Assembly (NCBI RefSeq): GCF_000143535.2
Contig: NC_037323.1
Location: 434,001-498,000, forward strand
DNA from: Botrytis cinerea B05.10
Taxonomy: Eukaryota > Ascomycota > Leotiomycetes > Helotiales > Sclerotiniaceae
Length of the DNA: 64,000 nucleotides
Direction of reading: 5' to 3'
How positions within the stretch are numbered: the stretch's first letter is position 1; each line of letters opens with the position of its first letter. The notes beneath the pieces were generated by a model. The model was not told where the DNA came from, searched no databases, and was given only the letters and a program-made list of their open reading frames with translations. A program made the position numbers and the translations under genes. Below are positions 21,836 to 64,000 of the stretch, piece after piece.

Positions 21836-22830
21836 TTCGGATAGGATGGGGTTTAAATTGTTACGATCTTTTTCATCCATCTATGCTATGCACACACGCG
21901 TTCTCATCAAAAGTTTCATTTCGGAAGCCGTGCTCCTTTTCTTAATATGTGGTGGGAATGAATGAAAAGGGAATCTGAGGGGCACAGCTTTGTAGTCATA
22001 TTATATCACAAATACCATTATGGGGGAGTGGAATGGCGTTTTTTCTTCTTCTTTCTTTTTTGAGTCTTGATGAATGGCTTCTTTTCTCTCCTTTTTTCTT
22101 TCTTTCTTTCTTTGGAGGCCAGCTAGCATACGATAAACTAGTTTGAGGTGTAGTGGCTTTCTTTTGTTTGATATTGTGGCGGATTGGTGGATGAGTGGGG
22201 GGGAGGTGAGAGCAGTGTTCTATGAAAGTACCTGGCGCGTTGGAGACGAGCGAGGGAGATAGAGAGATTGCGGGGCGAAGGATTATGGAGCGCGCAGAGT
22301 GGCTCTCGGCATCAGTATCAGCGAGGGTGATGATGGTGTATCTCTGGTAGTGGACGATACAAAGAGCGAACAATGAGTGGAAGATATCTACCTAGCGCAA
22401 GAATACCTAGTGGAGAGTGGCATATACAAAATGAAATAATACATTTTGAACCAGTATTTATTGATTTTTAGTTTGGTGATGTATTGTGATATCATTTGTG
22501 CACGCGTGAACCGCATTACATGTGTGTATGAGTATATTCGATCTGGCTAGCAGTAGAAATGATGATAGATGAGATTTGAGATAGGAGGGTGTGATATGCA
22601 GATGGAGGAATGGGTGGGCAGTAGGAAGTCATGAGAGTTTCGAGTTTGGTCGAGGGCAGAAAGGAGTAGGAATTGAGAAGGGGGGTTAGAGAGAAGTTGA
22701 GATTGAGATTGGGAGTGAGACTGAGATTTGGATTGTATATCGTTGGTTTGTTGACGAGGTTAAATATTTGGGGATATGTTTTGAGAAAGGGAATGGGTAT
22801 TGGATGGAGGATAGAGGATGGGGTGTGGGA

Positions 22831-22919
22831 GGTAGAGAGGTAGAGAGGTAGAGAGGTAGAGAGGTAGAGAGGTAGAGAGGTAGAGAGGTAGAGAGGTAGA
22901 GAGGTAGAGAGGTAGAGAG
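22831..22919. repeat. GTAGAGAG octamer tandem repeat
   Basis: About eleven near-perfect copies of an eight-base unit. The minus strand reads as alternating Leu-Tyr-Leu-Ser-Thr-Ser-like peptide, which is why a spurious ORF covers it. Confidence 0.9.
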
Positions 22920-23468
22920 AGAAATGTGGATTTGTGAATGAGGATGAGTATGAGGTGTTATTGATACGTAGATATATTGACATGTAAATGTAGATTTGTA
23001 GATGCGTAGGTATGAAAATGATTATAGAAATGGATATATACACATATATATTAGCTCTTACTTGGATGGGTGTTGATTGAGAAGCGGTTGCGGAGATTAT
23101 TCCATAGATGGTGGGCTCTAGATATTAGATAGATGTCTAGTATACTGACTGATTGGTCTTGGATTGGATTGGATTGGATTGGATTGTGAATGCTGAGAAA
23201 GGATATGGATGCAGAATTGAGAAGAGAGGGTTGAGAATTGGATTGGGTTGGTCGTGAGAGGGGTAGTTGGGTTTGGAATGAACTCAGAGCATGAGGGGTT
23301 GAATTAGAGAGACGAGGGCCAAGAAGTATGATGCGGATACGGTCGTATGACCTTGGATAGAGAGTTATTGTAGATGGATGCAGAGAGAATCATACTGTAG
23401 TCTCCGAATTGCGAGGGTTTCGGCATCTGTAGATCTGCTGGGTGGTTGGGTGGTAGATGATCTTGGTT

Positions 23469-23571
23469 TCTTGGTAAGAGGAGAGAGGAGGGGAGAGGAG
23501 GGGAGACGAGGGGAGACGAGGAGATGGAAGGGAAGGGAAGAGAGGGGAAGGGGAAGGGGAGGGGGGTTATA
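23469..23571. repeat. Purine-rich GAGGGGA tract
   Basis: About 100 bases of almost pure purine on the plus strand made of imperfect GAGGGGAGAC/GAGG units. Such polypurine-polypyrimidine tracts can form triplex DNA; here it is only a compositional observation. Confidence 0.7.
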
Positions 23572-24332
23572 ATGTAGAAATTTATGGATATTGGTATATG
23601 GCACTGGGCACTGGGCGTGTGTAGATAAGTCTCGAGGAAATCTTGAGAGCATATAGGATCCAGAGTCTGGATTCAGTCGTCCTTGGTGAATCTTGCTTGG
23701 GACCACTGGCGGACGCGAAAAAGTGTTACTCGATGTGGATAAAAGATCCCGAGGTGGGGAGATGGAGTGATGCCGATGAGCTCCGACCTCATATTCACGC
23801 TTCCGTCTCTGTATCAATATGCAAAGTCTTGTCTACTCCTGGAGGAAGATTGTGCTATCTGATCAGCACAATCTCGCCGTGTGAGTCAAAACACTCTCTG
23901 TCCCGTCGCTGTTGTATCGTAATACCTGGTTAGGAAACCGCATGGAATGGAATCGTAGATGAAATATTCACAACGGGTGGATAAAGTTTTACCTGATCTG
24001 TAACTTGCCCCTCATTTACCTTCCCTTAGCAAGTAGCTAGCTGTCCGAAAGAAGTCCGATACAGAATACCTGACGAATACATGACAAAACCTTACACACA
24101 CCTCCATTCAACCTTAAAGCTTAACGAAAGATCGTTTACTTACCCCTCATTTGTAACCAACGGACGGCTATTTACTTGCTTTACCTTCTCCTCGAACGAA
24201 ACGAAACGAAACGAAACACAAGAAATAGCACGACGCATTCTGTACACCTTGAGAGCTTTCGAATACCTTGAGAGCTTGACTTCACACACGAGCAGGGACG
24301 AATTAAAAGAAAGAAGATCGAAATAAGACAAC

Positions 24333-26325
<1,993 letters not shown>

Positions 26326-27876: not shown

Positions 27877-28223
27877 CTATTTCTGCGGGAGTTTCTGGCG
27901 AGCAGAGAAAAGTTAGTGCGGTTTATGTTTGATTATATTTGAGCGAATGAGAGAGTTGGTTTACTTACTTCTGACGGCTTCGGGGATGAGGATTCGAGAG
28001 CCTCCGGTACGCACTTCGAAGGATGTTTTGGAGGTGCCCCTACTATCTGTGAATCCGGATTCTTCGACTCGGAACTAGATCTCGCACTGCCGATTTTGCT
28101 AAGAAATTGGGTTGGTGGCGGTTGGGATGGCGAGTCGTGCATGGGGCCTTCGATGAATTTGCTTGTATGTGTTTTCATAGCTGGTGATGAGTTTTCATCT
28201 TGATGCGTGGATAAGGATGGCAT
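27877..28223 (-). CDS. Small hypothetical protein with SKFIEG motif
   Basis: Predicted exons complement 27969-28223 and 27877-27894, joined across a 74-nt phase-0 intron (GTAAGT donor, CACTAAC branch, CCAG acceptor), giving 90 aa. The start is in a strong context (AAAATGCC). The visible segment KTHTSKFIEGPMHD followed by SQPPPTQFL resembles a motif I associate with uncharacterised small proteins of Helotiales and related fungi, but I cannot name a family. The rest is Ser/Pro/Lys-rich and disordered. It shares SKFIE, the MP- start and the short terminal exon with the next gene (29008-29274), suggesting a divergent paralogue. Its last exon encodes only five residues and has no CaaX box. It could also continue without splicing to 27933. 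Confidence 0.5.
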
Positions 28224-29007
28224 TTTGATTTGGAATTTGGATCTTAGGGCTGTGTGGGCTGGGTGGGATGGGATATTTGGAGTCTGGAGTCTGGAGTTTT
28301 TTTGCGCGGAGTGGAGTGGATGTTTTGGGTTTGGAAGATAAGCGGAGATGGTTTCTTGTGCGTTTGTAAGGAGATGATTTCGAGCTTGGAGCTTCTCCTT
28401 TTGGTTTTTGGTTTGGATCTTTTCATTATTTGGGAGAGAAATGGAGAGGGAAGGAGAATATATATGAATGGAAATGAGAGTGGGATGTGAAAACTATATG
28501 TTCATAGTAGGTTGTGAGTTGGTGACTGTTTGCGAGTGTGTAGTCGGTCATATTACTAGTGATATGATCATATGGATCTTGTGACTTCTAGAGTGAATGA
28601 AGGCGAGGCATGACTGAGAGAATAAATGACAGTTTGGGAAATGTTTTTATGGGGGTTTCTTTCTTTGAAATCGCATTGTTATACGGTGATGAATGGGATT
28701 TAGCTGTGTGCTGTGTAGCAAATTGTTTGAGGGAGATTTTGAGATGGTTTGGGTGTTGAATTGAAGTGCGGTTTGATATTCTTCGTGTTATATGAGGGGA
28801 TTTCATGATATTGGTAGTTTCATTAGTCTAGTTGCAAATACTAGGTGTTTGAATTTTCTAAATACTAGCGGTTTCTAATAGACCGTTTCTAGAATATCAT
28901 CTTCAATGACATCATATCCAGTAAAACCATCTCAAGTTACTTCATATCTAATAATCTCCATCCTTCCTAAATACCCCTAAGTATCTACCCAGTATATCAT
29001 ACACATC
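28224..29007. other. Intergenic, nothing recognised
   Basis: About 780 bases between two small minus-strand genes. It is G/T-rich on the plus strand near 28250-28480. It should contain the promoter of the 27877-28223 gene and the 3' UTR of the next. Confidence 0.5.
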
Positions 29008-29274
29008 CTACATAATCACACAACCGCAACCCGAACCTTCTCCCACTTTTACCTTCGGCTAGAAGAGGAATATGTTAGTAATTTATCTATACATCGACAC
29101 TGAAGTAACCGAGGATAACTCTATTTATCTACATACTTTGACAATCACAGGTTTTCGATTAGCAGGACGAAGGTGCTGGGTATAAACAGGTATTGGTGAT
29201 GATTCCTCGAAGCTTTCGATGAATTTACTGGGACGGAATTCTTGCCTTCGACGTGCGGCCTGGGAGGGTGGCAT
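29008..29274 (-). CDS. Candidate prenylated mini-protein ending CVIM
   Basis: Predicted exons complement 29137-29274 and 29008-29058, joined across a 78-nt phase-0 intron with textbook signals (GTATGT donor, TTACTAAC branch, polypyrimidine, TCTAG acceptor). The 62-aa product starts MPPSQAARRRQEF, contains SKFIE at 17-21, and ends GEGSGCGCVIM. CVIM is a canonical CaaX farnesylation box (it is the C-terminus of K-Ras4B); the cysteine two residues upstream could be palmitoylated. The preceding KPKVKV is basic, as in many prenylated membrane anchors. Without the intron the frame ends three codons later and the CaaX box is missed. A role at a membrane is inferred. A lipopeptide mating-pheromone precursor is an alternative, but the length and lack of the usual core make it less likely. 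Confidence 0.55.
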
Positions 29275-30486
29275 TGTGTAGTGTGGTGCGAGGCTGGAGT
29301 TGTAAGGTGTGAGTGGTTAGCCTTTGGTAATGTGGTAAATGTTAGATGGTCTGAGATGATTGAGTGAGGTGTTTGAATTTGAAAATTGTAAACCACTTTG
29401 ATATCGGTCAGTTTTTTTACAAAATTGAAAGTAACTTCGAATCTGGGATGTTGTGTTCTGAGTTGAGGAAGATTCGTCAAGATCTCGAGGTGTAGCATTA
29501 TATAATACATATTACTCGGGCTCTGATATGAGTCTTTGAGTTTTATGGATTTACAGTCATAGTGTTGGGGAGATGGTTATGAGTCCTAGATTATTGGGGG
29601 AATGAGTGGTAAGAGTGACTAGAGAGATGGTGTATGATTTTCTATGAGAGCGGATGGAGTTTCAAAGGAAGTTTTTTTTTTTTTTTGTTAGAGGAGTTTA
29701 TGAAGAGGCAGCAATTTCGTTCTTTTGTTGATTTTCACACCTAGTGGTCTGGCCGATTAACATTTAATATAGGCAAGAGCTGTTCTAGGAATGTACACTA
29801 CCACATATTTGCAACATTTACTGTATTTCTGACAAAGTTCGACACCGTTCCTGGCTTTCTTGCACACTCAGGATAAGGAAGTATGGTAGAGTAGAAAGGG
29901 TAAATGGGAGTATTTGAAGCAAATTATCCAGAATATAGAGTGCTCAAGTAGAGCGTCGTTTGAATCTCAAAGATAAGCTCAGTGAAGTTTGATGAATTTA
30001 AGTGTAGACTACCATGTTTTGCCTTGTGAAAGAGGATGAAGAAATAGGCGAGAATATAGAATGAAGAAATCTTATAAGTTGTGGAGACTTCTAAACACTT
30101 ATATTTCGTTAATAGGATCTTCAAATTTACAAATTCTGGAAAGGAAGAAATACAATATTTGTAAGAATATAAATTGAGATACATTGAAATCCCTTTTTAA
30201 TCAGATTAGATTAACATGAAAAGATCTATTTGCGCTGTAGAAATATATTAGTTAAAAATACGATTGCTTATTATACAGATCATTCATATCCAAATTACTG
30301 ATGCTAAAGTCTAGTGACATTGGCAATTTCAATTTACTAACACCTCTCAAAGTGGGCAATTAGAGGATCTCAAAAAGATTCCATTGATACCCCTATCCCG
30401 GCCAACGCCTACCCGCAGGCCTTTAACGACAATGAAATATTAATTGTACTCAAACAACTATTAGCGAATGGCTTCAGAAATAATAC
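29275..30486. other. Intergenic, nothing recognised
   Basis: About 1.2 kb, very AT-rich from 29.9 to 30.35 kb, with a T-run at about 29671-29688. Only short ORFs without family resemblance. The left part should hold the promoter of the CVIM gene. Confidence 0.5.
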
Positions 30487-31922
30487 TTACATCATCCACC
30501 AGCGACGTTTCTTCTTAGTCTCCTTCCCGTGTCCGATGAAGTTAGCACACTTCTAATCTCATGGTGAATTGAGAATGATGATTTACTCACAGAAGATGGT
30601 ACAGGCGGACGCGGCTTAGATAATTTCAGAGGACGCTCTCTTCTTCTCGGGCGCGTGTTTAGAACAGGCGGCGAGGGTCTTGCTTCTAACTGGTTAGTGT
30701 TCTCTGATGGTTTGGGAACAGTTTGTGTTCGAGGTTTGTGAGGTCTTGTTGATATTTGATATGGTATTGGTATCCGTGTTAGAGGTCTTGCTTCTAAATG
30801 ACTGATGTTCTCTGGTGATCTAGGATAAATTGGTACTCGCGGTGGACATCTTGTTTCTAATTGATTATTGTTTTCTGATGATATAGGATTGACTGATGCT
30901 CGAGATCTGTTAGGTTCTACTGATGAATGAGTAGGTATTGCTGATTTTTGATGTGGTATTGGCATCCGTTGTAAGATTATTGGTTCTAATTGCCTGGTGC
31001 GTTCTGATGGTTTGGGAATAGTTTGTGTTTGAGGTTTGTATGATCTTGCCGATGAACGAACAGATATTTCTGATAGCTGATGTGGCGGCGGTGTTGGCGG
31101 CAAAGGCCTTGCTTCAACACGGCGAGTTCTTTCAGGTGACTGAGAAGTAGCTGCTGGCCTTGACTTATGAGATCTTGCTTCCGATCCAAGAGGTGTTGCT
31201 GATGATTGGTGTTTTGCCATTTGACCATCATGCGCTGCTAGATGATGATATTCTTCTTCTAACATCTTGGATTCCAAATCTTGTGTTTTGAATTGTTCAG
31301 CTAGCGAATGCGTGCTGCTGGATCCGAAGCTTGATGATATGCGCGGTGATTTATGATAAATTGAGCCTTTGGTGGAATTGCATCTTTGCGCTCCGCCCGC
31401 TATTACTTTTTTTGGTCGAGCATGCTTGATTTCCTTCACAATTATTTGTGACTTGGGATGTTCTTTTCTTGGCGGGAAGTGATCAAAGTCGGAGAACTCC
31501 CCCGTATACCTTTCGCTTTTCATTGCCAAAGGGGTTCGAGGTGGTCCTGAGCAGGTACTGCTTCGCGAGGAAGATGGTCTTGCTCGTGATTTACTCCATG
31601 GCTGCATTTGTATTCTGAATTCAGATGTTGATTTCACTAATTCAGCTCTCGCGGTCGGCTCCGGTTGGGGAGACTGAAAGTATCTTCCACCTGGTGACCC
31701 GGAAGTCCGGGATTTTCTCGTTCGCGAAGGCGTCTTTCTCGACTCAGGGACTTCATGTAACCAACTTTCAACAAGCTTGTCCTGGGGCTTGGGATACCTT
31801 TTCAGATTATGTTCAGGTAGTTGGAAGTAGAGTTTGGTGTGTAGCCATGCTCGTTTGATTGTCCTATCATTTAGAGTTGGCTTATTTGTCAGCTTGGATT
31901 TTTGCATCTTAGTGAGCGGCAT
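30487..31922 (-). CDS. Basic Pro/Ser/Arg-rich protein with internal repeats
   Basis: The main exon is complement 30591-31922 (444 codons), from the ATG at 31922 (MPLTKMQKSK). A GTGAGT donor at 30590 and a TGCTAAC branch site suggest a short last exon. With an acceptor near 30520 (or 30514) the protein ends in (T)KKKRRWWMM with stop at 30487. The acceptors are GAG/AAG and not the preferred YAG, so this end is uncertain; unspliced, the frame ends at 30492. The protein is unstructured and highly basic. Residues about 262-432 carry five imperfect repeats of the form SExxxQLEARPxPxxPIPxQ, with two full units of 43 residues and shorter later ones. No domain is recognised. It sits in a row with the small CaaX genes and shares the phase-0 terminal-exon layout. 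Confidence 0.6.
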
Positions 31923-32739
31923 GACTTGAAATTGGCAGGTAGCGAGAACGACATGAAATATCAAAGGTAGTGTAAGTATGTGGATCTCGTGAATTATTTG
32001 TCGTAAGATAGGTGTGTATGACGATCTCGATACTGGTAGAAACGTTGGGATTATTTTTGAACTCAATTATTATGTGAGATGTGAGAAAGTTCTTCAATCG
32101 ATGGAGATGGAAACTGTACATATATTCGTAGGTAGGAACTATGAATTGCTAGATCTTGGGGGTGCGTAGTCACAAGAGACCGCACGGGGCTCAAAATAAT
32201 GTCGCTTATGACTCCTGAGTTTATGACCCATCATCAGTACTATGGAGCTCTGCAGTATTCCTATAATTGAGAATTTTGAAGAATGAAGCCTTTTTGACAT
32301 GATTTATATATGAATCATGTATTGTGTGGAACTGAACAGCCATAAGTATTACACTGATGAGTGCCGAAGAAGTGATTGAAAGAATGACTCGGATTACTGA
32401 AAGATAAGAGAGAATGTATCAGATGACACAAGAATAAAATGCTTGTGGCCTGTGACTTTGAGGTTTTAAATATAGTCACATCGAGGCTTTAGGTGCGGAA
32501 TTCGCAAACAGAGTTTTAAAGTCAAGGAGGATAGTCTGGGCCTTTGATAGAAGAGGCGTTTGAAGAGATGTTAAAAGCAACGATTATGTATTGTACAGTT
32601 ATTCTATATCCCAAATCTATATGCCAAAATACCACACCATTAGGAAACCCTCACAATTCCCTTGAGAAGCTACATCCTCCGAGAAAATACAGCATCGATA
32701 CCATGCCAAAACAGCCAGACGTAAAACTCCATCTTCAGC
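31923..32739. other. Intergenic, nothing recognised
   Basis: About 820 bases that should contain the promoter of the 31922 gene and the 3' UTR of the CSVM gene. No further coding signal seen. Confidence 0.5.
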
Positions 32740-33025
32740 CTACATTACCGAACAACATCCACCTTCTTTCTAACAAAATGTTAGTGTACTTATCCTATTT
32801 GAATAAACAATTGATATATTACCTCTACAGGAACTTTTTTAAGGATACAATTTGGTGCAATTCCTCTTGCCTCCATGTCTTCGAAGGTGTCACCGTTTCG
32901 ACCAAATTTTTTTTTTCGACGGACTTTGTATTGCGTGCGATATTAGATGTTGTAACCTTTGTATGTCTGATATCAGGACCACCCCCAATTCTGGAGAGGT
33001 CGGCGAAAGGATAATCCGGCGCCAT
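32740..33025 (-). CDS. Candidate prenylated mini-protein ending CSVM
   Basis: Predicted exons complement 32849-33025 and 32740-32769, joined across a 79-nt phase-0 intron (GTATCC donor, weaker than consensus; CACTAAC branch; TTAG acceptor). The 68-aa product starts MAPDYPFADLSRIGGG and ends KEGGCCSVM. CSVM is a CaaX box with Met at the last position, which favours farnesyltransferase, and the adjacent Cys is a possible palmitoylation site. The rest is polar and basic with no domain that I recognise. The unspliced frame would instead end in LKKFL and lose the cysteines. The terminal exon aligns with that of the CLVM gene at 33659 (17 of 22 bases through the stop codon), which supports both gene models. 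Confidence 0.5.
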
Positions 33026-33658
33026 TCTTGCCCTTGGAGTTGGCAAGGTTACTGGATTTTGAGACTTCAGGGATTGGATTGTGTATCGAAAGATGAGGAC
33101 AGGGTGGCGATGACGACACGAAGTTTTGTGGTTGACTTTAATAAGTGCTTCAAGCAAAAATATCGTGAGACAGATATATGAGAGTACTAATACTGATCAA
33201 TGTATGCAGTGTTGAACTTGAAAAATATTTGGAATTTGAATGGATGTTCTGTTTTGGTTTCTTGAGTACATGTGCAGCAGAAGCAGAACTATTTATCTTA
33301 AGAGTTCTATTCCTATGAGTCTCATTAGGGTTTACTGATATGAATCATAGACATGACTACTATTTTTGTTGTGAGTAATGGGAGAAGATGACTGGAAAAA
33401 ATGACTGTTCATGAAATAGCTTTCAATTGAAAGATAAAAGAGCAATAAGAGTATTGAGAAGGCATGAAGCCAATTCGTTTGAATAAGCAGTGAAGCGACC
33501 CCCTTGGACTGCTCGGAGTTCTCTAAAGTAACAATTGCATATTATGCTGTCTAATAGTATCCGAAACTCCAGTGATAACAACACCCCATTACACTATTGA
33601 GCAAGAACCTGAGTAAAATACAGCAACGAGCTATGCTCATAACACCATTCCCAGCACC
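33026..33658. other. Intergenic, nothing recognised
   Basis: About 630 bases between the CSVM and CLVM genes. It should hold the CSVM promoter and the CLVM 3' UTR. No other feature seen. Confidence 0.5.
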
Positions 33659-34207
33659 CTACATCACCAAGCAGCAGCCTACATCTTCACTGCTAGTTTT
33701 CTACCAAAACGGTTAGCATAATTCCTGTATGTACGAAAAGAATAACCAAATTCTCCTTACCTTCTGAGGCGTTGGTTTAGAAATAGGTGCTTTGTGATGA
33801 GCCCATACTGGCGGTCCCAAATCTCCTCTCGCAGCTCGATAACCTTGAGCATAACGATGCGAATCCTCCCCCAAATGAGGTGCTTCACACATGGGTTTTC
33901 GTCCATATGTCGAACAAAGACTGACCGATGGAGAAAGCGGTGATGGCTTCGGTCGTTGCCGCTGTTCTTGCTGTTTTTGTACGCGGTGATATTCATAAGC
34001 ACTAGGAACGTCATCTATAGCACATCTATAATTGTAACGCGGTGAGTCGACGGCAGGTTGCACGTAATTACGCGAGGCCTTCTTGTGTGAGGGGAACATA
34101 GATACCTCGTAGAATTGAGGGAAGGCAAAGGTAGGGTCTAGTTCTTCCCGCGTCAGGGCGCCTTCAGTATCCCAGCCACTACTGAGTTTTGAGGGTGGCA
34201 TTTTCAT
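33659..34207 (-). CDS. Candidate prenylated protein ending CLVM
   Basis: Predicted exons complement 33761-34207 and 33659-33700, joined across a 60-nt phase-0 intron (GTAAGG donor, TGCTAAC branch, GGTAG acceptor), giving 162 aa. Two nearby ATGs are possible. The second (34201) would start MPPSKL and matches the start region of the CVIM gene over 11 bases. The spliced end is SSEDVGCCLVM: a CaaX box (CLVM) with an adjacent Cys. The body is polar, Pro/Ser/His/Arg-rich (SYEYHRVQKQQEQRQ-like), with no recognised domain. Unspliced, the frame runs to 33713 and ends in LFFSYIQELC, which lacks a CaaX box. Membrane anchoring by prenylation and palmitoylation is inferred from the terminus alone. Confidence 0.55.
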
Positions 34208-35731: not shown

Positions 35732-37928
35732 CTAGAAGTACCAATTTCCTTCCAAATCTGTATTTAACAAACTGTCAAAAAACATGGTATTATCCACTTG
35801 TAGATTTGACCAATCATCAATTTGTTGTTCCGGCTCCAACGGTGGCAACTGACAACTCTTAAAGGAAACAATAGGTTGAGCAGCAGCCCATGGGCAATTA
35901 AGTGAATTGTCGAATTCATTCTCTGCATGCTGTGAATCTCCCGAGGACATATTTTGCATGAGAGACTGAGTAGTATCCAAAGATTGAGTGTCGATAGAGG
36001 GAGTTGATTCGGTGATATTTGTAGCGGGTGTACGTGCTATTGAAACTGTACCGAAATAAGGAATTGTGAGACGCAGATTTCCACTTGTGCTAGTTGATGC
36101 GAGAAGGGTTTTGATAACTTGAACACTTTGAATGGCCATTACATCATTTTCTGAGGCACATTCGTCCATGGCACCTAAGACGGTTTCAACGAGCTCTCTG
36201 TCAGATCTTTTTTGATCTTGGACTGCGATTGTGTCGCCGCCTACTGGAGGAATTTCCAGTATACTCAAGAGAAGAGTCACGCTTGCCGTGAAAGCCGCAA
36301 AATCTACCACCTTGCAACAAAAAGACTTTGTGCCTGAGCGTCTGATGGTAAGATAGCGGGAGATGATTTCTCGAGATGATCTGAGACAGGTAAATTTACT
36401 ATATTCGTAACGACGTTCGGTAGCAGCTCGAATCATAAATGGTAAGTGTAAGAATGATTCTAGTTGAAAGTAGTAGATTTGTGACATGATTCGATCAAAT
36501 TTTGCGGCGGAGTTTGGATCTTTACTGACGGTCTCAATGTAACTTGGCACTTCCCACCAAGATTCAGGCATTCCCCTACCAGTATTCTCGAGTTTCTCGT
36601 CAAGCTCTTGAGTACTGGCAAATGCATGAATATAGTCGGATTGATTTCTCTCGATAATCCCCCCAGCCAAATTTGTAAGTTTTCTGATGAATAAAATGTC
36701 ATGATCGATGTTAGGATTGCTAAACGTTTCGTGCGATAAGATCACACTATCCTCCGCTCCAGCAGGCATGCCTAATAGTAAACTCAAATATCTGTCTCCC
36801 TGCATCAAACTTCTCCAAAGGTTGACTCCACCAGGTGGTAAAGGTGTAGTACTAATAAGCTCCTCGCGTTTATGGAGACCCATAAGCTGACCGATATTCA
36901 TAGCTCGGCGGAATGTGAGCCATGCGCGACGTAAATTTCCCGCATTCATATGAAACAATCCTTGGAGTAACAAACATTCCAGTCCTTGGACAGAAGCTAC
37001 AAGTTCGTCATCTGAGGTCACGAGCCCTGAAACTGTCGATACAATCTTGTCTATTCGAACTTCAATACTACTGGTGATTCCTAATTGGCTTGCGTCGTAT
37101 CCATGAGGTAATTGCTGTAAACATACAGCTACGTAAATAAGTATTTGTGCTATCATTGCGGGACTTTCTTTTCCAATGCTGGGAATGTCTAATGAATGAT
37201 TCGGATTGAACGCTGATGGCCCTAGCATAATATGAGCTGAGTGGTTTGTCAAAGAATGCATCAACAGCCAGCAATCAGAGAAAGTGCAAAGTATATTCGT
37301 GGCTTCCTGTGATGGAAGAAGCTCTATTAGAACATCTTTGATCCTTTCAATCTTTGTTGGTATGCAACATTGCTTGGTTGTCTTTTCACCACCTGCCTGA
37401 GATTTTGGGGTTGTGATCTCGGATTGAGTTTCCCTTTCTCGGCGACCTAGCTTTAGAGGATGTGAGCAAATATATTATGTGGGATTTGGAACGACTCACA
37501 ACAGGATTATCAAAAAGAGACAGAATAGGTACAGCTGTAGCACTATCATATCCATTCGAGGTGGTATTTGTAAATGGTGCAAGAACATCACCAGTGCCCA
37601 TACTTTCCGGTGTATGAATTTTAGTCGCATTATCTTGCTCTTCATACTGTTCCATTTTGGACATCAATTTATCAAGAACAAGCTCTATACGACCGAGGCG
37701 TTCACCAATCTGAGGACCACCTGAAGAATCATGTTCCTCTGGATATTCTTGACTTATACAAGTCGTTCCACGTGATAAGCAACCAGAACAAACGCTGACG
37801 TTCTCGGAACTCAGTTGGCACTTGACTTTTCTTCTTTTGCATTCCCAACAACTTTTGGTCCCCTTTCTAACGCGTTTCTTACGATGTTCATCTTCCCCTA
37901 GAGCTATTGAAGCTGGCCGAACAGACAT
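35732..37928 (-). CDS. Zn2Cys6 fungal transcription factor
   Basis: Two exons, complement 37500-37928 and 35732-37450, with a 49-nt phase-0 intron (GTGAGT donor, AAAG acceptor), give 715 aa. The ATG at 37928 (MSVRPASIAL) precedes the DNA-binding domain. The cysteines at 27, 30, 37, 47, 50 and 57 follow C-X2-C-X6-C-X9-C-X2-C-X6-C, with the basic KRRKVK between them, which is a complete binuclear zinc cluster. A short heptad-like linker (RLGRIELVLDKLMSKMEQYEEQ) is a probable dimerisation coil. The rest matches the fungal_trans middle homology region, for example RRAWLTFRRAMNIGQLMGLH and DRYLSLLLGMPAG. It is a nuclear transcription regulator whose target pathway cannot be read from the sequence. 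It lies head-to-head with a decayed regulator of the same class. Confidence 0.92.
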
Positions 37929-44214: not shown

Positions 44215-45386
44215 ATGACCGGTATGAGAGTTGCTCATTTGGTGGAGCAAGGAAAGCCTTTGAAAGTAACGACAATTGAGAAGCCAACTCCAGGACCAAA
44301 AGATGTTCTCGTCAAAGTCGAGGCCGCTTGTCTTGTTCCAAACAGTGCCAACATTGTAACAAAAGGCCCAGGTCAACATTACGTATTGCCAAAGTTGCCA
44401 TCTGCTTTTGGTTTGGATGCCGCCGGTGTTATTGAAGCAGTGGGAGAAAACGTCATTGGACTAAAAGTTGGGGATCGAGTTTATGTTGACCCATACATAA
44501 CTTGTGGCACCTGTCACCAATGTCGAAGGGGTAGGTTGAACGGCATGTCGAGAAACTTTGTAGGGTTTGCTAACGAAGGACAGGGAGGAAGGACTTGTGC
44601 CACCCGTCATGCCTGCGTGCGTACTTCGGTGTTGGAACCCCAGAAGGAAAGGCAGTGCTTGAACAGTATCCCATTGGTTCACTCTCACAATATTTGCTGT
44701 CACCTGATGCAAATATCGCAGTGATTCCTCCCTCGATTGACATTAACACCGCAGCTCGATTCGGGTACATCGGCACTTCATATGCAGGTCTCAAAATATG
44801 CGGAATGGGACCTGGAAAGACTCTTGTAATCAATGGTGTGACAGGCACACTAGGATATTCCGCCGTAGCGATTGCTCTCGGTTTTGGCTGCACGAAAATC
44901 TTGGGAATTGGACGTAATAAAGAACGTCTGGCTGAGATCGAGAAAATGGCCACGAAGGGACGTATTGTTGTTCGTTCCAGTGAAGATGAAGGGGACCTTA
45001 TTGAGTGGATTAAGGAACAAACAAATGGACTAGGCCCCGATGGCTTTTACGATTGTCTTGGTAATGGAGGTAATTCAGACGGTACCTCCAAATTGATCAG
45101 CTCTTTGAAACGTGGTGGAAGAGCAGCATTAGCTGCTGGCGGAGTTCCTGGTGACATCACTCATTCTTACAACGAAGTCATGGGACACGATGTCAGTGTT
45201 AACGGGGTACTATGGTTTAATAGTGCGCATCTAGACGAGCTCATCGAGTTGATTGATGCAGGAGTCATTGACTTCTCGTTCCTTCAACACAAATTTTTCG
45301 CATTGGATGAGGTTAATGATGCTTTCAAATTCGTAGGAGATCGTCCTGGTGGAGCTATCAATGTTATTGTGCAACCACAGGTATAG
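44215..45386 (+). CDS. Medium-chain zinc-type dehydrogenase, catalytic zinc ligands lost
   Basis: Two exons, 44215-44530 and 44584-45386, with a 53-nt intron (GTAGGT donor, GCTAAC branch, ACAG acceptor) that restores the structural-zinc loop; 372 aa. The N-terminal GroES-like domain includes EKPTPGPKDVLVKVEAA and FGLDAAGVIEAVGE. The structural-zinc motif is intact: Cys97, 100, 103 and 111 (CGTCHQCRRGRKDLC). The catalytic-zinc positions are not: the usual GHE is GLD (66-68) and the CH(S/T)D motif is replaced by ACLVPNSAN. The Rossmann segment VINGVTGTLGYSAVAIALGFG carries a GxxGxxG dinucleotide-binding motif. It is therefore a medium-chain dehydrogenase/reductase, perhaps a zinc-independent quinone- or enone-reductase type. 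The substrate is unknown. The nearest upstream coding feature is the transcription-factor pseudogene, 3 kb away. Confidence 0.88.
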
Positions 45387-61435: not shown

Positions 61436-62649
61436 GATGTTTGAGCAAATCATTCAATGGGTAGATCCTATTTTTTTGATTATCCGATCTCTACTTTAAC
61501 TTGTCGAACAAAAAGAACAATTTGATATTGCATTCGACATTGTGCATATTTCGACGCAGGAATCGGTTTCTTGCAATTGCTAGTTTTATTGACGAAGATG
61601 ATGAATACTTTTCGAGAAACAAACTTCTTAATTAATTTTGGAGGAACTTTTTGAGCTTTCAGTCTCAATGTTGACCTTCATTCGCTATAACAATTTCCTT
61701 TATTTTTCTTTCGTTTTGGGGGTTTCTGACTTCTTTCGTGAATGGCATCCGGGGATATTTCCTACATTCAAAGCTCTGGAATTGTTTTGACTTTGATGAT
61801 GCTTATCAGTTTTTGTCACAATTCCAAAGTTGTCGAGTGAGATTGAAAACTGGATGCTCGCACGAATGAAAGGGAGGGATTTTCGATGGATCAGGGGGAA
61901 TGCAATGGATTGGGGATATATGTTTGGACTTCTTTGCTGTTTGTTCTGATACTGGGGATGGAATGGTTAAATGGAAATTGTGATATGATTATATGCCTGG
62001 GTTTACTTTTCTTTTTTTCTCTTTCTAGTTTGGGGGATATAAGAATATGAACCTGTTGATCAGATTTGGAGGAAATACCAGGCTGGAATATGGGGGATAC
62101 GGATTGTGGGTAGTGAGGGAAAGAATAAGGAAATTCTTGAAATGTGCGAATAGGTGAGGTGGATGAGATAGGATAGGGGAGATGGGATTAAGTGAGGATA
62201 TATTTGTAGCAATATGAAATACCATTCTTTTTAAGATTATTCTTTGGACTTTTGCTTCGCATGTTTTTTGTGATGAATTAATTGTGGTTGGTTGTGAATA
62301 TGTGACGGATGTGAGGAGGGAATGTAATGTGAGTGGCGGAGTCAATGAATGATGGATGTGATGAATAAGTAAGTAATAAAGAAGGGAGGGCAAGTCAATT
62401 CCTATTCCCTCCACCTTCCGTTATATTTTCATTCTCCTTTTCTTCTCTCGCGTACAGCTCTATTTTGGAATCCTGCAATGGAATGAAGTTATTGCTGTTT
62501 TTTTTGTTTTTTTTTTTCTGGAAGAAGGAAGAGAGAAGAGGGGAGGGAAGTTGATTAAGGCCTGTGATATTGGGGGTTTCTATTACTTCTATTACTTATA
62601 TTACTTACTTGTTGATTGCTATATGTGTTCTTGACTGGTGGGTGGCGGC
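61436..62649. other. 3' flank of the 544-aa gene
   Basis: T-rich 3' UTR-like sequence, then G/A-rich spacer. Short minus-strand ORFs (for example around 62.0-62.4 kb) are low in complexity. Nothing further recognised. Confidence 0.5.
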
Positions 62650-62753
62650 TAGAGAGAAGAGGAGAGAAGAGGAGAGAAGAGGAGAGAAGAGGAGAGAAGA
62701 GGAGAGAAGAGAGAATGTTAGGTGTGTGTATGTAAATATATATGTCTTTCTAT

Positions 62754-62788
<35 letters not shown>

Positions 62789-63156
62789 TTTGTGTTTTGC
62801 TTTATTGTGTTTTATTTTGTTATTTTGTTATATCTTTAGGTGGGTGGTAAGGAGTAGGTAAGGAGTAAGGAGATAGTGATGATGTTGATGTTGATGTTGA
62901 TCTCTGGGAGGAGGAGTGGAAGTGGAAGTGGGAGATTTTTTTTTTTTTTTTTTTTGCTTTGCTTTGCTTTGCTTTGCTGGTGTAGGGTCGTCGTCGGTTG
63001 TTTTCTGGATGTGGAGTTGTGAAGTTGTAGATTGTGGGATGTGGTAGATTTATTTTATTGTTGAATTTTGAATTTTGAATTTTGAATTTTGAATTTTGAA
63101 TTTTGAATTTTGAATTTTGAATTTTGAATTTTGAATTTTATTCATCGATTTGTTAT

Positions 63157-63210
<54 letters not shown>

Positions 63211-63211
63211 A
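62650..63211. repeat. Stacked microsatellites
   Basis: In order: GAGAAGAG-type units (about 62652-62712), TATT tetramers (about 62751-62791), a T-run of about 18 (about 62937-62955), GCTTT pentamers (about 62956-62978), about eleven copies of the heptamer TTGAATT (about 63061-63139), and about seventeen GTT triplets (about 63160-63210). The ORFs reading through are repeat translations (for example a poly-Val stretch). Confidence 0.9.
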
Positions 63212-64000
63212 CTTTTAATTTAGGTCTTGGGTGGGATTTTTTCCCATTCGCTTCGGTACATGTCGTTGCGGAATACAGGATACGCTCGCTGTGCAGAATG
63301 AGATGTGAGGGTTTGGTGTAAGTAGGGAAAGTAGGGAAGGAGGGAATTCTATATCGAAATATTGAGAAAGTAGTGGGTTGGTATAGTAGGGTTTAATATC
63401 GCATGCATGTAAGATCTTACTTCCTGTGGTAAAGTGATTTGTTGTGTATGCTATATATATATGTACTTTGAAGTTTTGGGGCATGGAGAACTTGTATAGT
63501 TGGGTTTGACGCTGTGAAGGGATGTTCTTGTGTGTGTGATGGATCTTTTGGGTTGGAGGTTGAGGTTTGGAGAATGTTGGATTGTGATGAGTGGTATATG
63601 GAGGGGGGGAGGGGTATTTTTGTATAAGTTTCATGTCGTCTACTCGTTTTTTTTCGCTGTGTTTTTCATGAATCTGCGCTTCGCTGCTGTCTTTCTTTTC
63701 TGGTTCCTAATTTCGAAAGTCGGAGAGGAGGTGCGAACGAAAACTTTCTTTTTCTTGAATACCTGATAACAACTACCTTAATATAGGGAATTCTGCTTCG
63801 ATCTCATCAAGTCTTATGTTAGTCAGCTTGGGCTCAAATTTTAAATGTGCATACAGACTGATCTGATGCCATCTCGTTCGATATCTAAACTCTTTAAATC
63901 GCGCAATAAACAGATTGTGTTTAAGAGAGATTTGTATCGCGGGAAATTTCATTGTCAATATAACATTTTTATGTTGGTAGACTCGTTAAGTTCTCTGGTT
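63212..64000. other. Window-end spacer, nothing supported
   Basis: About 0.8 kb with no recognised gene. A short minus-strand ORF at 63773-63958 could be part of a gene continuing past the window, but I see no family features. Confidence 0.4.

Follow-up and report, generated by a model that had tools for sequence, protein, structure and literature searches.

Why should neighboring genes of Botrytis cinerea B05.10 each end in a last exon of a few dozen nucleotides (nt), and do these exons encode a membrane anchor? The question is raised by a row of five minus-strand genes, here called C, B, D, A, and E, at positions 27877-34207 of a 64,000-nt stretch (the window; contig 14, NC_037323.1, positions 434,001 to 498,000). 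A preliminary description of the window had proposed that splicing of a last mini-intron brings a CaaX box with a terminal methionine to the ends of A, B, and C. We found that this CaaM mini-exon feature is real and non-random, with one wrong gene model. With moderate confidence, we favor the explanation that the row is Botrytis-specific and at least partly syntenic, and that it encodes fast-evolving proteins, probably disordered, each with a C-terminal membrane tail carried on its own tiny last exon.

Genes A and C provide the most direct evidence. Gene A comprises exon 1 (29137-29274), a 78-nt intron (29059-29136), and a 51-nt terminal mini-exon (29008-29058) that encodes PKVKVGEGSGCGCVIM and a stop. 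With the intron removed, the product ends EGSGCGCVIM and is identical over its full length to the annotated protein P0003 (QC760_008155; 62 residues, one member sequence). The 60-nt last intron of gene C (33701-33760) separates exon 1 (33761-34207) from a 42-nt terminal mini-exon (33659-33700) encoding KTSSEDVGCCLVM and a stop; its removal yields a protein ending DVGCCLVM, identical over its full length to P0001 (BCIN_14g01050; 162 residues, 11 member sequences). The proposed ends CVIM and CLVM therefore agree letter for letter with annotated B. cinerea proteins. These proteins are gene models, themselves predictions; the B05.10 annotation reportedly made use of RNA sequencing. A further B. 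cinerea protein, P0002 (H4I96_08998), equals gene C over the first two-thirds and then changes frame to end LRRKLAVKM. That end is the product of the same two gene C exons in another frame with 33701-33760 removed, and its fit to the removal of this intron indicates that a second annotation uses it.

The remaining details proposed for A, B, and C were borne out by splicing. Each intron is in phase 0 and contains a CTAAC branch site (the intron of B, as first modeled, spans 79 nt), the terminal exons measure 30 to 51 nt (30 nt in B), and the cysteines vanish from the unspliced frames. Each spliced end has methionine at the last position and a second cysteine just upstream (CGC, CC, and CC), two residues before the CaaX cysteine in A and one residue before it in B and C. 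A CaaX box thus stands at the protein end of A and C in annotated proteins, and of B by the tail exon alone.

Could such frames merely splice into CaaM by chance? The donor first assigned to gene B, which is weak and probably wrong, would fit this explanation. We scanned the window for terminal exons of at most 54 nt that end in C-a-a-M and are preceded by a YAG acceptor, CTRAY, a donor, and, upstream of these, a frame that starts with ATG and spans 40 codons or more. Retaining one model per site, this strict scan returned three sites, A, B, and C only (gene C with an alternative donor). One of 150 dinucleotide-shuffled windows held a single match, and none appeared when the 7.4-kb minus strand was shuffled 1000 times, a control that is lenient because shuffling also destroys real reading frames. 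Over 139.9 kb of other stretches of the genome, a small control of 37 loci (30 picked for holding TGYTGYNNNNNNATGTAR, and two overlapping by ~2.9 kb), the only site fell in a Ykt6-like SNARE gene. A loose scan of both strands, whose donor rule excluded gene C's own donor, produced 59 mini-exon models, of which eight have cysteine at -4. Five of those eight have a terminal methionine: A, B, and three models that splice into the tail of C. Across the genome (18 contigs, 42.63 Mb), TGYTGYNNNNNNATGTAR matched 62 times, versus 35 times in a reversed control. Thirty of the 62 matches were modeled, one of them with a mini-exon (Ykt6); three are G-gamma, B, and C, and 29 were translated only. The scan and its controls agree with the earlier judgment that convergence of A, B, and C on the same terminus is unlikely by chance. 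Together with the exact agreement of A and C with annotated proteins and the presence of the B tail in Botryotinia convoluta, they make a chance origin exceedingly improbable.

Two known CaaX proteins of the same genome place the layout in context. The Ykt6-like gene (L002; G000:C1, ending at 215,321) has Synaptobrevin and Longin domains by Pfam and matches YKT6 in PDB. Ykt6 is a doubly lipidated type of protein. Its CCVAM terminus is encoded by a last exon of 41 nt (35 nt with another acceptor), and it thereby resembles B and C in having a CC-a-a-M end on a terminal mini-exon, but its last intron is not in phase 0, and SNARE or Longin domains were not found in A-E. With a CaaM mini-exon present in a known prenylated protein, A, B, and C gain credibility, and their layout looks less exotic. 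The G-gamma gene of this genome ends CCLVM, identical to the end of gene C. It differs in that its last exon lies within a 43-codon frame, and Pfam detected its domain (PF00631) in none of A-E and in the genome only at C10:1470021-1470310 (two exon matches). We considered the last exon of G-gamma as the source of the mini-exon and rejected this origin on account of that 43-codon frame.

The wrong gene model is that of gene B. Spliced at 32770, its terminal mini-exon (32740-32769) gives the end KEGGCCSVM. A comparison is offered by P0007 (B. convoluta BCON_0111g00210), which is annotated at 725 residues and appears to join three neighboring genes, C, B, and D, in error. Its residues 1-94 match gene C (71%), residues 92-145 match the first part of B together with the stretch directly before B's ATG (49%), residues 144-161 correspond to B in a different frame (67%), residues 176-184 (KESGCCSVI) match the tail exon of B at seven of nine positions, and the sequence from residue 191 matches the lead-in and body of gene D. 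Along B, the match occupies frame -1 from 33073 to 32909 and frame -3 from 32915 to 32862 before it continues in the tail exon. Because it switches frame inside the body, gene B looks frame-disrupted in this assembly; the change falls in an A-rich stretch and may be either real or an assembly error. The first body part (32909-33025) is in the frame of the ATG, and the second (32823-32915; KKKFGRNGDTFEDMEARGIAPNCILKKVPVE) is in a different frame that stays open up to a phase-0 GTAATA donor at 32822, so the donor first placed at 32848 is probably wrong. The last intron supported by P0007 is accordingly one of 53 nt (32770-32822) in place of 32770-32848. The tail of the original gene B model thus stood, being present as KESGCCSV in B. 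convoluta, whereas its donor and body frame did not. The P0007 model continues beyond CCSV; a GT donor within ATG-T would account for its isoleucine and would imply methionine at that position. The C-B-D part of the row is conserved, since P0007 joins these three genes in the same order.

Do the two remaining genes belong to the same design? They had been described as sharing the layout, and both indeed have a phase-0 mini-exon, yet neither ends in a CaaX box. Gene D (30487-31922) encodes a long Pro/Ser/Arg-rich protein conserved in Botrytis. Its exon 1 (30591-31922) is followed by a 68-nt phase-0 intron (30523-30590) with a CTAAC branch site and an AAG acceptor, and by a terminal mini-exon (30487-30522) that supplies a polybasic, di-tryptophan end, ETKKKRRWWMM. 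The protein search for relatives covered A, C, and D; none was made for B or E. It returned seven relatives of D, one from B. cinerea (P0004, 94% identical over 94%) and six from other species (P0005-P0010). Four of these six (P0005, P0007, P0008, and P0010) end GKE..KKRRWWK[IT] on the mini-exon, and their tails open with two residues (GK) that the tail in this genome lacks; P0009 halts at the end of exon 1, and P0004 and P0006 run on into the intron. The string K-K-R-R-W-W is invariant among all five sequences with the tail. Their last 12 residues are identical at 7 to 11 positions (58-92%), as compared with 46-81% for the body, and tail identity exceeds body identity in 10 of 10 pairs, by less than 5 points in four of them. 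A genome-wide pattern coding for KRRWW showed no enrichment (18 matches versus 32 in the control). The end RWWMM was also considered as a lost CaaX box and rejected: other species carry RRWWK[IT], so that a CaaX ancestor of D is not indicated. Gene E, predicted from a splice model, consists of exon 1 (27969-28223), a 74-nt phase-0 intron with a CTAAC branch site (27895-27968), and a terminal mini-exon (27877-27894) that ends KLPQK.

The suggestion that the row is an expanded family gained no convincing support. Elsewhere in the genome we found no paralog of A, B, or D at E values up to 10, and none of C up to 0.001; gene E was not searched. A single match of D on C8 (E 1.02) was rejected as a paralog, as it sits in an unrelated long frame and looks like chance. 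The bodies of A, B, C, and E could not be aligned convincingly: the scores of the six protein pairs were reached by 9 to 487 of 500 shuffles, with weak signals for B-C (9 of 500, via the tail) and A-C (13 of 500), and D has its polybasic di-tryptophan tail rather than CaaX. The flanking DNA gave one clear signal. The 3′ flank of D (30251-30308) resembles that of B (32570-32628) with a score of 36, which was attained by none of 200 shuffles and exceeds all 976 background segments. For the B-C 3′ flanks, 4 of the 976 matched or beat the score, for the B-C 5′ flanks 9 to 10, and for the A-C 5′ flanks 10 to 11; as 20 flank pairs were tried, only the D-B similarity is firm. From these sequence comparisons, a shared origin of the row genes by tandem duplication is possible. 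Pfam searches of A, B, C, D in its unspliced form, and the first exon of E gave no domain above the cutoff, and none was found in P0005, P0007, or P0010; gene C had two subthreshold matches (E values of 0.042 and 0.057). AlphaFold2 modeled gene C with a mean predicted local distance difference test score of 47.8, a hint of disorder that is weak because the input was a single sequence.

Several of these observations weigh against a row of fast-evolving proteins with conserved membrane tails. One B. cinerea version of C, P0002, shifts frame halfway and lacks the CaaX box. The protein search found no relatives of A or C outside B. cinerea among candidates of 0.55 to 1.75 times the query length, a restriction through which P0007, holding a relative of the C body, was missed. 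The bodies of A, B, C, and E share no convincing similarity. Gene B is frame-disrupted in this assembly, and one part of its body (12 of 18) is preserved nearly as well as its tail (7 of 9). The tail of D is missing from two of the six non-cinerea models (P0006 and P0009) and from P0004, and its AAG acceptor in this genome is weak. A different explanation would be that these are decaying or newly born orphan genes, with real transcripts, little function, and tails that are relics. The frame break in B, the frame-changed P0002, the mere 94% identity over 94% between D and P0004, and the absence of CaaX from E all agree with it. However, D and its tail are retained in several species, and the tail of B recurs in B. 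convoluta, and we regard decay or recent birth as possible but rather unlikely.

The preliminary description had named lipopeptide pheromone precursors as the chief alternative, and the small size of A would suit a-factor-like precursors or other secreted farnesylated peptides. The published length of Leotiomycete a-factor precursors is 45 to 64 residues (PMC10569646, in excerpt); A has 62 and C has 162, and the 68 of B come from a model that is probably wrong. According to the same excerpt, CSVM is among the published Leotiomycete a-factor ends, with CVIM similar, and pheromone genes, being small, frequently lack annotation (PMC10569646). Yet the a-factor candidate published there for B. cinerea, BCIN_13g03330, is on another chromosome, which weakens the pheromone alternative; this candidate is reported for at least 111 species and is identical in 19 of 20 Botrytis species (PMC10569646). 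Compared by description, it is like A in being a small protein with a terminal CaaX box and unlike the row genes in its GY motif and Ser/Thr-rich N-terminus. A GY motif near the C-terminus occurs in 87 of the putative a-factors, which come from at least 111 species (PMC10569646). We found no GYC string in A, B, C, or E; GY was absent from A, and C had it no nearer to its end than 40 residues. Nor was a Ser/Thr-rich N-terminus found, serine plus threonine making up 14-18% of the N-terminal half in A, B, and C and 27% in E. Of two pattern searches for CTVM-type ends, one gave no match and the other 3, and C13 had none of these. The length of C and the second cysteine, which points to two lipid groups like those of Ykt6 and G-gamma, also speak against pheromones, and we judge this alternative improbable. 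Of the same kind as the products of A-C is a set of unassigned annotated CaaX/CPaX proteins of at most 100 residues, a limit that C exceeds: four in B. cinerea, five in B. sinoallii, 11 in S. sclerotiorum, and 12 in M. fructicola, for which, apart from the a-factor candidate, the excerpt states no role (PMC10569646). BCIN_14g01050 was not named in the literature text searched; among six BCIN_14g010xx names, only BCIN_14g01020 occurred there, in one paper as a predicted small-RNA target (PMC13136243, in excerpt).

How would the tails act? Methionine as the X of CaaX favors farnesyltransferase, and a cysteine one or two residues before the CaaX cysteine is commonly palmitoylated, as Ykt6 and yeast Ste18 illustrate. 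Under the favored explanation, in each of A, B, and C farnesyltransferase would farnesylate the CaaX cysteine, the three residues after it would be removed and the new end methylated, and the second cysteine could be palmitoylated, keeping the body on a fungal membrane. The tail of D would bind acidic membrane through the charge of its conserved K-K-R-R-W-W and aromatic insertion. Disordered, domain-free bodies tethered in this way may act as membrane scaffolds, baits, or regulators, those of D likewise through charge and tryptophans. As for the earlier proposal of farnesylated and possibly palmitoylated anchors, the motif is a classic farnesylation box with a nearby cysteine, from which we infer the modification itself. 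A variant to which we assign a low probability is that these are unrelated or saturated disordered proteins kept mainly for the phase-0 mini-exon tail, with splicing or retention of the intron switching between membrane-anchored and soluble forms and bodies diversifying like recognition or conflict genes. In the portions of the literature searched on CaaX with heterokaryon incompatibility, terminal exons, or intron retention, the row genes did not appear. It is also conceivable that the proteins act outside the fungus and are lipidated by the host farnesyltransferase, as a CaaX box would function in any eukaryotic cell and fast evolution in a plant pathogen would suit a host-directed role. Since A-E start hydrophilic, a signal peptide is not seen by eye, and we consider such a role very unlikely.

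Elsewhere in the window, a Zn2Cys6 domain (37386-37928) and a Fungal_trans-like frame below the curated cutoff (35732-37261) lie on the minus strand; the two probably belong to a single transcription factor gene (35732-37928) interrupted by an intron. Two zinc-binding dehydrogenase genes flank the row at some distance on the plus strand (25488-26081 and 44805-45386). The highest GC skews among the 2-kb steps of the window are at 22001-24000 (0.51) and 62001-64000 (0.49). Rfam and tRNA scans of the window returned no matches.

If the favored explanation of a row with membrane tails on tiny last exons is true, short last exons conceal membrane-anchor signals from gene finders, as exemplified by P0004, P0006, and P0009, annotated without the D tail, and by the three neighbors fused in B. 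convoluta. The row would then offer tractable orphan genes whose tail predicts membrane location and, for A-C, a farnesyl group, and it would bear on why some Sclerotiniaceae hold many small CaaX proteins.

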